Shown here: positions 45,417 to 48,364 of the stretch, in pieces
Layout of the letters: every line of letters starts with the position of its first letter
Numbering within the stretch: the first letter of the stretch is position 1
Made by a program: the position numbers and the translations under genes
NCBI RefSeq assembly: GCF_041477585.1
Contig: NZ_JBGNYA010000001.1
Location: forward strand, 310,001 to 374,000
Source of the DNA: Halobellus sp. MBLA0158
Lineage (GTDB): Archaea > Halobacteriota > Halobacteria > Halobacteriales > Haloferacaceae
Direction of reading: 5' to 3'
Length of the DNA: 64,000 nt
Notes under the pieces: generated by a model
The model's database searches: none
Told to the model about the DNA's origin: nothing
Seen by the model: only the letters and a program-made list of their open reading frames with translations

Positions 45417-46781
45417 ATGAAACTGTTCGGTTCGAGCGGCACCCGGGGCGTCGTCGGCGACGGCCTGACGCCCGAGTTCGTCCTCCGGGTCGCCCGGGCG
45501 GCCGGGACCGTCTGGGAGGTCGACCGCGCCGTCGTCGCGCGCGACACCCGGACGACCGGCGAGATGCTTTCGAACGCCGCCACGAGCGGGCTCCAGAGCG
45601 TCGGCGTCGACGTGGATCGGCTCGGCCCGACGCCGACGCCCGCGGCGGTCCGCTACGCCGGCACGCACGAACGGCCGGGCATCCTGATCACCGCCTCGCA
45701 CAATCCGCCCGAGTACAACGGCGTGAAGCTCGTCGGCGCCGACGGCGTCGAGCTCTCAGTCGCAGAGCTCGAACGGATCGAAGAGCACGTCCTCGGCGAG
45801 GACTTCTCGACCGCGGCCTGGGACGCCGTCGGCGACGTGCGCGAGGTCGAGACGGCGAACCGCGAGTACGTCGCAGACCTGCTTTCCGCCGTCGACCGCG
45901 AGGCGATCGCCGCCGCCGACCTCACCGTCGCGCTCGATCCGGGCCACGGCGCGGGCGCACTGACGAGCCCCGAGTTCTTCCGGGAGCTGGGCTGTGAGGT
46001 CGTCACGGTCAACGCGAACCCCGACGGCCACTTCCCCGGTCGGGACTCCGAGCCGGTCGGGTCGAACCTCACGGACCTCAAGTCGCTCGTCGCGGCCGCC
46101 GACGCGGACGTGGGGATCGCCCACGACGGCGACGCCGACCGCGCGGTCTTCGTCGACGAGACGGGGGCGTTCGTCCCCGGGGAGTCCTCGCTGGCCGCGC
46201 TCGCGGCCGAGGCGCTGGAGCCGGGCGACACCGCGGTCGCCGCCGTCAACGTCTCCCAGCGCCTCGTCGACGTCTGTCAGGCGGCCGGCGCCGACCTCGA
46301 ACTGACGCCGATCGGCTCGACGAACATCATCACGCGGATCCGCGAGCTCCGCGCCGCCGGCGAGCACGTCCCCATCGCCGGCGAGGGCAACGGCGGGATC
46401 TTCTTCCCGCCGTACTGGATCGTCCGCGACGGGGCCTACGTCGGCGCGAAGTTCCTCGAACTCGTCGCCGAGCGCCCCGCGAGCGAGGTCGTCGCCCCCT
46501 ACACCGACTACGAGAACGTCCGCGTGAACCTCGGCTACGAGAGCGAGGCCGAACTGGAGGCGATGCTGGCGGCGGCCCGCGAGTACGCCGAGGCGGCCGA
46601 CGCCGAGCCGAACACGAAGGACGGCTACCGCCTCGACTACGGCGACGCGTGGGTGCTCGTCCGCCCCTCGGGGACCGAACCGAAAGTGCGGGTCTACGCC
46701 GAGTCGACGTCGCGAGCGGAGGCACAGGAGCTCGCCGACGAGGCCGCCGACGCGCTCCGCGAGGCGCGCGAGCGGGCGTAG
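45417..46781 (+). CDS. glmM: Phosphoglucosamine mutase / phosphohexomutase
   Basis: Alpha-D-phosphohexomutase of 454 residues. The phosphoserine loop is TASHNPPEYNG (Ser near 93), the metal loop is HDGDADRAVF (about 235), the sugar loop is GEGNGGIFFP and the phosphate-binding end is VRPSGTEPKVRVYAES. It converts hexosamine or hexose 6-phosphate and 1-phosphate forms for UDP-sugar supply to glycoproteins. Haloarchaea have several paralogues, so mannose or glucose specificity cannot be excluded. ATG 45417 is fixed by the start MKLFGSSGTRGVVG. Confidence 0.9.
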   Translation: MKLFGSSGTRGVVGDGLTPEFVLRVARAAGTVWEVDRAVVARDTRTTGEMLSNAATSGLQSVGVDVDRLGPTPTPAAVRYAGTHERPGILITASHNPPEYNGVKLVGADGVELSVAELERIEEHVLGEDFSTAAWDAVGDVREVETANREYVADLLSAVDREAIAAADLTVALDPGHGAGALTSPEFFRELGCEVVTVNANPDGHFPGRDSEPVGSNLTDLKSLVAAADADVGIAHDGDADRAVFVDETGAFVPGESSLAALAAEALEPGDTAVAAVNVSQRLVDVCQAAGADLELTPIGSTNIITRIRELRAAGEHVPIAGEGNGGIFFPPYWIVRDGAYVGAKFLELVAERPASEVVAPYTDYENVRVNLGYESEAELEAMLAAAREYAEAADAEPNTKDGYRLDYGDAWVLVRPSGTEPKVRVYAESTSRAEAQELADEAADALREARERA

Positions 46782-46796
46782 CGGCTCGATCGGCTC

Positions 46797-46878
46797 ATAG
46801 TGATTACTCTCGTCTCTTACCGCCGAACGCCACCCCCGGTAACGGCGTTCGGCGGTAAACAGTGAGAGCAATCACTAT
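46797..46878. repeat. 82-bp composite hairpin / inverted repeat
   Basis: Three nested complementary arms: ATAGTGATT (46797-46805) with AATCACTAT (46870-46878), CTCTC (46807-46811) with GAGAG (46864-46868), and a perfect 15-bp arm TTACCGCCGAACGCC (46817-46831) with its complement at 46844-46858, around a 12-nt loop. It fills the junction of glmM and the leftward gene whose stop codon shares its last base. It could be a bidirectional terminator, a small mobile repeat (MITE) or a structured RNA. Confidence 0.75.
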
Positions 46879-47156
46879 CACAGCGCGAGCACGCCCAGCA
46901 GCGCACAGACCGCGCCCAGCGCGAGCAGGACGAACCCGCGCTCTATGGAGACGTCGTCGCGGCGCCGTTCGGCGGCGTCGGACTCGGGAATCCGGTCCGG
47001 ATCGTCCGCCGGCCCGAGCCGGGCGAGCGCGTCCGAGCGCCCTCGGCCCGCGCGCCGGGTGAGGTGCTCGATCGCCCGACGCGTCCGGAGCGCCCGGGCG
47101 CCGAAGTAAAAAGACAGGAGCGCGGCCGCGAAGGCGACCGCCGAGACGACCACCAT
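46878..47156 (-). CDS. Small two-helix membrane protein
   Basis: Protein of 92 residues with a membrane helix at each end (SAVAFAAALLSFYFGARAL and GFVLLALGAVCALLGVLAL) separated by a charged loop of about 50 residues. The start at 47156 overlaps the stop of the upstream coiled-coil gene by one base, so both are probably translated together. The longer upstream frame is an Arg/Pro-rich shadow. Function unknown. Confidence 0.65.
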   Translation of the reverse strand: MVVVSAVAFAAALLSFYFGARALRTRRAIEHLTRRAGRGRSDALARLGPADDPDRIPESDAAERRRDDVSIERGFVLLALGAVCALLGVLAL

Positions 47157-48364
47157 CAGCCCGAGCCCGTCTGTGCGGCCGCGGACTCGCTTTCGTCCAG
47201 CGCGGTCGCGAGCCGCTCGCGGGCGTCGCGGAGGCGGTCCAGCTCCGCCGCGACGGCGCCCGTCTGGACGCGCTCGCGGGTCGCGGCGTCGAGTTCCTCG
47301 TGGGCCCGGAGCGCGAATCGGAGGTCCGCGTAGTCCTCGCGGCGGGTCAGGTCCCGGACCTCTCGGAGCCGCGCGACCGTCTCCTCGCTCGCGAACCGGC
47401 CGAGGAGCGAGATCGCCTCGACCGCCCACGCCCGGAGTGTCCCCGCGGACGGCGGCGGCAGGGCGATCGAGAGCGGGTCGGCAGAGAGCCGTTCGAGGAA
47501 CGTCCGGTGGACCGCGACGTTGGTCTGGAGCGCCGCCGGATCCTCGGCGTAGTGATCCAGTTTCGAGCCGGTGTACTCCGCGTACTCCAGGAGCGTCGGG
47601 ACCGGCTCGTCGGCGTCGGGGCTCTCGCGGGCGAACTGCCGGAGGTCCCGCGGCGGCGAGCGGAAGTCCACCAGGGGGAACGACTCGGCGCGCTCCAGGA
47701 GGCCGATCACGGCCGCGATCGACGCCGACTCGTAGAACGTCACGAACTCCTCGCGGACGGCCTCGTTGTACGCCGCGATCGGCTCGCGGAGCTCCTCGAC
47801 GGGGGCGTCGAGGTCGGCGTCGGCGAAGGCCAGCACCTCCTCGCGGGACTCGATCGCGTCGTCGAGGTCCGAGAGCCGGAGCTTCGCGTCCCGACGCGCC
47901 TTCGAGAGTGCCTCTTCCGTCTCCTCTCGCCGGTCGAGGAGGTCGACGTACTCGCCCGCCGGTTCGAGGTCCGCGCGGGCGCCGGCGAAGTCGTCGTCGC
48001 TGAGTCGGCGGCGGTCCATCCGCTCGGCGGCCGCCTCGAAGGCCTCGCTCGCGGGGACCGACTCGGGCAGGTCCTCGACAAGCCCGAGGAAGCGGTCCTG
48101 GAACTCCACGTAGGCCTGGAAGTCGCCCGTGCCCGTCGCGGAGTCCTCGTAGCGGTCGAGCAGTCGGACGGCCTTCCGGTAGGCGTCGGCGGCCTCGACG
48201 ACCGAGTCCTCGCCGACGTCAGCGATGCGCTCTTCGACCGCGTCGCGCCGCTCCCGCGCCTCGCCGAGCGCGTCGAGGCAGTCCTCGACGTCGGCCAGGA
48301 GCGCTTCCATCCGCGCTTCGGGGTCGGCCTCGGCGTCGGCGTCGACCGATTCGGATCCGGACAT
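47156..48364 (-). CDS. Large helical/coiled-coil haloarchaeal protein, unknown function
   Basis: Acidic cytosolic protein of 402 residues, almost entirely helical with long coiled-coil stretches (for example ARMEALLADVEDCLDALGEA and KARRDAKLRLSDLDDAIESREEVLAF). It resembles a haloarchaea-specific family without assigned role. It lies 6 nt downstream of hisI and overlaps the small membrane gene by one base, giving a hisI-coiled-coil-membrane unit. Confidence 0.7.
   Translation of the reverse strand: MSGSESVDADAEADPEARMEALLADVEDCLDALGEARERRDAVEERIADVGEDSVVEAADAYRKAVRLLDRYEDSATGTGDFQAYVEFQDRFLGLVEDLPESVPASEAFEAAAERMDRRRLSDDDFAGARADLEPAGEYVDLLDRREETEEALSKARRDAKLRLSDLDDAIESREEVLAFADADLDAPVEELREPIAAYNEAVREEFVTFYESASIAAVIGLLERAESFPLVDFRSPPRDLRQFARESPDADEPVPTLLEYAEYTGSKLDHYAEDPAALQTNVAVHRTFLERLSADPLSIALPPPSAGTLRAWAVEAISLLGRFASEETVARLREVRDLTRREDYADLRFALRAHEELDAATRERVQTGAVAAELDRLRDARERLATALDESESAAAQTGSG

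Follow-up and report, generated by a model that had tools for sequence, protein, structure and literature searches.

Mobile palindromes and their described relatives

Duplications of 3 bp with the pattern TNA or TWA accompany insertion sequences of the IS5 family (IS1031/ISL2 type) and eukaryotic MITEs of the PIF/Harbinger type. Among haloarchaea, the closest described elements are the short mobile repeats (SMRs) and the palindrome-associated transposable elements (PATEs). SMR-A and SMR-B of Haloquadratum walsbyi are 80-110 bp long, have terminal repeats that belong to no known transposon, and are reported without a target duplication (PMC3119063). In the same account, PATEs are described as having neither terminal repeats nor target duplications and as related to IS605-type transposons (PMC3119063).

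The palindrome considered here lies within the window, i.e., the whole stretch of 64,000 nucleotides that was analysed. It resembles MITEs in being short and non-coding, with terminal inverted repeats, a target duplication and many copies; unlike them, it consists almost entirely of one palindrome, lands often at TGA stop codons and, in a partial search, has no autonomous element with matching ends. With SMR-A and SMR-B it shares the size range, the haloarchaeal setting and terminal repeats, for which the partial search gave no link to a known transposon, but its 3-bp TNA duplication sets it apart from the SMRs as described. PATEs are likewise palindromic and devoid of coding capacity, whereas the terminal repeats and target duplication found here place the element outside the PATE and IS200/IS605 definition. 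The TNA duplication is shared with the IS5 family and PIF/Harbinger MITEs, although no such transposase with these ends was present in the loci examined. No description of this palindrome family was found among the titles and abstract openings listed in searches of open-access papers. It is most probably (at about 0.86) a non-autonomous, selfish palindrome of MITE type, 79-80 bp long and moved in trans.

Structure and borders of the element

The original prediction, made from the sequence alone, placed a composite hairpin of 82 bp at 46797-46878, between glmM and a convergent gene. The hairpin is real and forms a single inverted repeat, with arms of 35 nt (46797-46831 and 46844-46878) that are 83% complementary and separated by 12 nt. 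It folds far better than chance: the plus strand reaches -55.6 kcal/mol, where 200 shuffled sequences give -26.2 +/- 3.2 (z -9.3), and the minus strand -60.5 (z -8.4), with no shuffle as good on either strand. The nested arms of 9, 5 and 15 bp had also been read correctly, the inner one being perfect around the 12-nt loop; the outer arm reads as 9 bp, one A/C mismatch and 5 bp, followed by a 5-by-5 unmatched stretch. The outer arm does meet the stop codon of the convergent neighbour, but not at its first base as had been stated: position 46878 is the last base of the TGA (46880-46878, minus strand) and is the first base of that stop in plus-strand coordinates only. The natural unit of the element is 46798-46877 (80 bp), with TCA on each side (Table 1). 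Since the left and right unmatched segments differ, the element has an orientation and its two ends are not identical.

Table 1. Features of the palindromic element and its flanks (positions in the window)
Feature	Position	Strand	Basis or remark
Mobile palindromic element, 80 bp (TAGTGATTACTCTC ... GAGAGCAATCACTA)	46798..46877	none	Sequence, BLAST, inverted-repeat search, duplications
Left copy of the 3-bp target duplication, TCA	46795..46797	+	Sequence; rule from filled/empty pairs
Right copy of the 3-bp target duplication, TCA (on the minus strand, the neighbour's TGA stop)	46878..46880	+	Sequence; element-free gene end in relatives
Left terminal inverted repeat, TAGTGATTACTCTC	46798..46811	+	
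Right terminal inverted repeat, minus reading TAGTGATTGCTCTC	46864..46877	-	9th base is A in the consensus
Left unmatched segment GTCTC, separating the outer helix from the inner one	46812..46816	+	Covariance model counts one base more
Unmatched right segment ACAGT, unlike the left one	46859..46863	+	
Inner palindrome, perfect 15-bp arms (46817-46831 and 46844-46858), 12-nt loop	46817..46858		Arms covary between genera
glmM-like gene (phosphoglucomutase/phosphomannomutase domains I-IV)	45417..46781	+	Stop TAG at 46779-46781; start from a simple gene caller
Convergent neighbour gene, 92 aa	46878..47156	-	Simple gene caller; TGA stop inside the right target duplication

The identity of the upstream gene as glmM, proposed from the outset, is backed by Pfam PGM_PMM domains I-IV; the 92-aa convergent neighbour gave no Pfam match. 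The gene next along, at 47156-48364, matches the full profile of DUF7118, a domain of unknown function. The T run of an intrinsic terminator is absent after the hairpin, the plus strand continuing as CACAGCGCG and the minus strand as GAGCCGATC. No Rfam match above the gathering score was obtained between 46500 and 47200, where the two sub-threshold matches were Leu_leader and mir-3198. The latter, a microRNA family, aligns with the minus strand at 46800-46875 (E 0.0018, 29.7 bits versus a gathering score of 91) and is taken as a chance similarity to a long hairpin.

Copies in the genome and across the order

BLASTN had been proposed as a check, with no further copies and no transcript ends at the site named as the refuting outcome; many further copies were found, and the hairpin is a dispersed repeat. 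In its own genome (G000), the 82 bp give 77 matches; as a palindrome is hit on both strands, these represent 40 places (40 of the 51 first-look candidates scored). Four of these places, the query included, are 99-100% identical, and the remaining ones go down to 77%; within the window, 46798-46877 is the sole copy. With 40 places by BLAST and 41 full-length copies by HMM, a non-coding unit of 80 bp is thus multi-copy and dispersed, as expected of a MITE. Over all fetched loci, which were chosen for carrying copies, the HMM finds 116 full-length copies: the 41 of G000, 37 in G010, 27 in G014 and 11 in five other genomes. G014, G012 and G010 belong to the same genus, Halobellus.

By BLAST, the element can be found in 12 of 60 genomes, and by a covariance model in 70 of the 293 sampled genomes of the order (about a quarter; own genome counted in both cases), distributed over 30 of 87 genera. 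The covariance-model matches listed are mostly 85-89 bases long, with one of 74. Sets of near-identical copies occur in G014, G134 and G197, and near-identical copies also in G040; judged from sequence similarity, those of the own genome, G014, G134 and G197 suggest that the element was recently active. One copy of G134 sits at the same place as a copy on the Halomicrobium mukohataei plasmid pHmuk01. Counts of end matches with one mismatch allowed (control 0 to 1) would correspond to up to about 190 copies in G142 (199 and 192 matches) and to about 80 in G197 (83 and 82). Phage records gave no match, and 18 viral loci with an end-like pattern contain no copy by the model. A wider scan of genome contigs yielded 34 stretches, of which 17 come from Halobellus and 17 from unrelated organisms, the latter holding no copy by the model.

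Empty sites and target duplications

The glmM/neighbour locus was matched in 12 of 17 genomes of the genus, the own genome counted. In the 11 relatives, without exception, the ends of glmM and its neighbour are still convergent and the spacer is devoid of the hairpin; the exact junction is unreadable there because the glmM ends are only 76-83% identical. Readable junctions are provided by G134 and G197, sister genomes that belong to a different genus, three G197 copies being absent from G134. All three filled/empty pairs, at 94-98% DNA identity, show exact 3-bp duplications (TCA, TCA, and TGA) around 79 bp, namely CGCCACTCA[79 bp]TCAGTGC versus CGCCACTCAGTGC, AGTCTCA[79]TCAGTAG versus AGTCTCAGTAG, and CGACTGA[79]TGATACTG versus CGACTGATACTG (G197 and G134, respectively). 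Two G134 copies, L235 and L236, are filled in both sister genomes, as judged from the gap between matches and the listed ends.

The same duplication can be recognized across copies. The S base of the triplet is the same on both sides in 52 of 61 copies, and all three flanking bases are identical in 27 of 41 copies in G000, 25 of 27 in G014 and 23 of 37 in G010, many of the others in these genomes having changed or misaligned ends. A further 47 copies were taken from 18 genomes, and identical duplications flank 46 of them (44 of the 45 that lie outside the genus); these copies were picked from the better covariance-model matches, and L238/L240 and L239/L241 each represent one site in two species. 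Terminal inverted repeats and a target site duplication upon insertion, by which MITEs are recognized, are both present.

These duplications bear on two other kinds of mobile element. A short mobile repeat of the Haloquadratum kind, having terminal repeats unrelated to any transposon and an unspecified mover, would agree in size (HqIRS41 is 80 bp), in its terminal repeats and in having no partner transposon in the partial search. It is nevertheless unlikely on a comparison of descriptions, given that SMRs are described as making no target duplication while 3 bp are duplicated here, and that the A type is said to prefer IS605/PATE palindromes as targets (PMC3119063). Far less probable still is a REP/PATE-like element that a hairpin-reading Y1 (IS200/IS605) transposase moves in single-stranded form. 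The hairpin architecture, its maintenance by paired changes between genera and the occurrence of PATEs in haloarchaea (PMC3119063) are compatible with it, but the terminal repeats and the 3-bp duplication at empty sites are both features that PATEs are described as lacking (PMC3119063).

Two gene ends are each occupied by a copy in two species of Halobellus. The copies are apparently in opposite orientation in one case (L037/L140), and their flanking triplets differ (TGA, TCA) in the other (L031/L136), so the two species may have acquired their copies at the shared gene end independently.

Target motif and stop codons

The consensus target is near-symmetric, GWCTSAGNC, as derived from 83 copies with intact TGA or TCA duplications; when these sites are oriented so that TGA reads forward, it becomes G-(A/T)-C-T-G-A-G-N-C. 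Codon usage (GAC TGA) partly dictates its upstream half, which does not hold for the downstream G and C. In eight genomes, 93 of 116 copies under a lenient rule (up to 2 bases of slack) and 83 of 116 under a strict one have a duplicated triplet that serves as the stop of an open frame with codon bias. The corresponding values for the own genome are 37 and 28 of 41, and by our rule the duplication is a stop in 30 of the 47 further copies. On annotated plasmids, gene end and duplication coincide at three of six places (H2, H6, H7) and do not at the other three (H1, H3, H4), for which the gene table is incomplete. In the own genome, the gene adjoins the left end of the element in 17 cases and the right end in 20.

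A special mechanism of stop-codon targeting, first prompted by the 37 of 41, lost weight when background CTSAG sites, drawn from the window and the fetched loci, were considered. A first count gave 22 such sites at stops, 38 intergenic and 100 coding, and 41-52% of motif-matched non-coding sites lie at stops. In a later count, the background comprised 41 stops, 80 intergenic and 194 coding sites, versus 85, 21 and 10 for the copies with the same caller. Gene ends were taken from our own simple callers, which disagree on some copies, and on this basis the ratio of stop to interior sites over all genomes is 41:4 for copies versus 23:13 for background in convergent spacers (p 0.005), where 23 of 36 sites are thus already stops, and 44:12 versus 18:36 in tandem spacers (p 3e-6). 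For the own genome alone, a stop excess is found in tandem spacers (18:3 versus 13:24, p 3e-4) and not in convergent ones (13:2 versus 15:5, p 0.67). Target choice and loss of harmful insertions cover most of the location at stop codons, and some excess remains; its convergent-spacer part is not wholly explained by target and selection and counts against the MITE reading.

Covariation and evolution of the stems

When genera are compared, the two arms vary in concert in the outer helix as well as in the inner one. Double changes occur in 17 of 29 pairs among 66 distinct sequences, versus 8.3 in shuffles, and between-genus pairing reaches 91.8%, versus 31-49% in slid controls. A wider alignment (A2) agrees on this covariation, its counts being overstated because each of the 47 copies enters it on both strands and the alignment follows the model. 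The inner 14-15 bp stay palindromic between genera, more than short terminal repeats need, which also counts against the MITE reading.

Within genomes, the comparison was confined to gap-free copies (n=21 in G000, 26 in G014 and 19 in G010). Divergence of the outer stem, inner stem and internal loops amounts to 3.7, 6.0 and 3.2% in G000, 1.9, 2.6 and 2.9% in G014, and 11.4, 12.2 and 15.8% in G010, respectively. Pairs changed on both sides number 5 versus 2.8 expected in G000, 3 versus 0.2 in G014 and 13 versus 9.7 in G010. Selection acting on the hairpin in place is thus not clearly indicated in G000 and G010, and weakly so, on three cells, in G014. Divergence is higher in the apical loop than in the stems (27% in G000, 4.8% in G014 and 37% in G010), the values for G000 and G010 being inflated because of two alternative loop forms. 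In the own genome these two forms (columns 39-50 of alignment A1) are near reverse complements of each other while the segments on either side stay in one orientation, the pattern that a flipping inner hairpin would leave.

These data can be set against the original suggestion of an RNA structure protecting both transcripts, or more generally a functional RNA hairpin (terminator or 3'-end protector) that spread as a mobile element and was retained for helping the host gene. Such a role would be in line with the very stable fold, the stop codon within the duplication of most copies (lenient rule), the stop excess in convergent spacers over all genomes and the gene ends occupied in two species (L031/L136, L037/L140). 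Stems varying less than the apical loop, together with the double changes of G014, would likewise fit some stem constraint, and are counted against the MITE reading. On the other hand, double changes in G000 and G010 hardly exceed chance, the stems there diverge at about the rate of the internal loops, and stem compensation within genomes is not clear; both orientations occur, no T run follows the hairpin, and the glmM gene pair is kept without it in every relative matched. An RNA role is hence quite improbable, although somewhat less so than movement by a Y1 transposase. The between-genus covariation, at one time taken as a signal of RNA, does not need that explanation in view of the within-genome result and of an account based on two ends. 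It is read here as a constraint on what can jump: the element may consist of two ends, each of about 38 bp and bound by a transposase, placed face to face, whose arms would covary between genera through being recognised by one enzyme.

Search for an autonomous partner

Among 119 PF01609 matches in eight genomes, the 45 loci examined carry other ends, none matching those of the element. PF01609 gave no match in G040, in spite of its near-identical copies, and PF13586 none in five genomes. This lack of an autonomous partner with matching ends in the PF01609/PF13586 searches is counted against the MITE reading. Among the places listed for end patterns in G000, G014, G008, G007, G010, G134 and G197, pairing ends are 66-70 bp apart, start to start, many single ends occur as well, and no pair at transposon length was seen by eye. 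Sixteen single-ended places of the own genome were read, most of which are degenerate copies, solo ends or chance occurrences.

Two candidate parents were discarded. In L095, the ends face each other 1.35 kb apart, but their flanking triplets differ (TCA, TGA), one end belongs to a degenerate copy that has an inner palindrome itself, and by eye the frames between them encode no transposase. L295 in G197, which looked like a parent of 2.1 kb, is really an IS (L295:1045-3153, with ends GAGGGTGTCATAG) inserted in a copy of the element and itself broken by a second IS.

A model for transposition and its consequences

Dispersed copies, two orientations, empty sites, the 3-bp duplication, the target motif and the frequent location at stops are established at the level of sequence. 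Of the three readings initially offered, the one that agrees with the copies, target duplications and empty sites is a MITE-like repeat that came to rest at a gene end, whereas no support was found for a protein-binding cruciform with a host function; protein binding is likely in the form of recognition by a transposase. The element would consist almost wholly of two inverted ends in head-to-head arrangement, both bound by a trans-acting transposase, probably of DDE type. A 3-bp staggered cut at the near-symmetric target would yield the TNA duplication, and a near-symmetric target with a short central duplication is what a DDE transposase would be expected to leave. Many genes end in ...GAC TGA G and fit this target; an insertion there would rebuild the stop codon and hence be harmless, so such insertions would survive. 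Those inside genes or before promoters would mostly be lost, the missing ones presumably having been removed by selection.

A broader view, tentative and about as unlikely as a short mobile repeat of the Haloquadratum kind, is that of order-wide orphan mobile palindromes, whose mover would be no conventional IS, whose substrate would be the full-length hairpin, and which would prefer gene ends as safe sites where the stop is rebuilt.

On the MITE-type reading, an odd hairpin becomes a defined mobile family with borders, a target rule and empty sites. Some of the long hairpins that resemble terminators at haloarchaeal stop codons may accordingly be insertions and not regulation, and annotators gain a model for masking them. 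By rebuilding the stop codon, the duplication would offer a mobile element a simple means of persisting among densely packed genes while doing little damage. The mover, not found in the partial search, would have been active enough for near-identical copies to arise in several genera.

Solo ends were also observed in the own genome (L088:3293, L093:3483, L097:3559, L102:3424, L095:1917, and L090:535). They keep only 12-14 bp of one terminal repeat, directly followed by a TCA resembling a gene's stop, as in CTCA-TAGTGATTACTC-TCAG. Such ends could have arisen, repeatedly at several sites, by deletion between two TGA triplets, one in the duplication and one in the right arm (AGTGAGAG).
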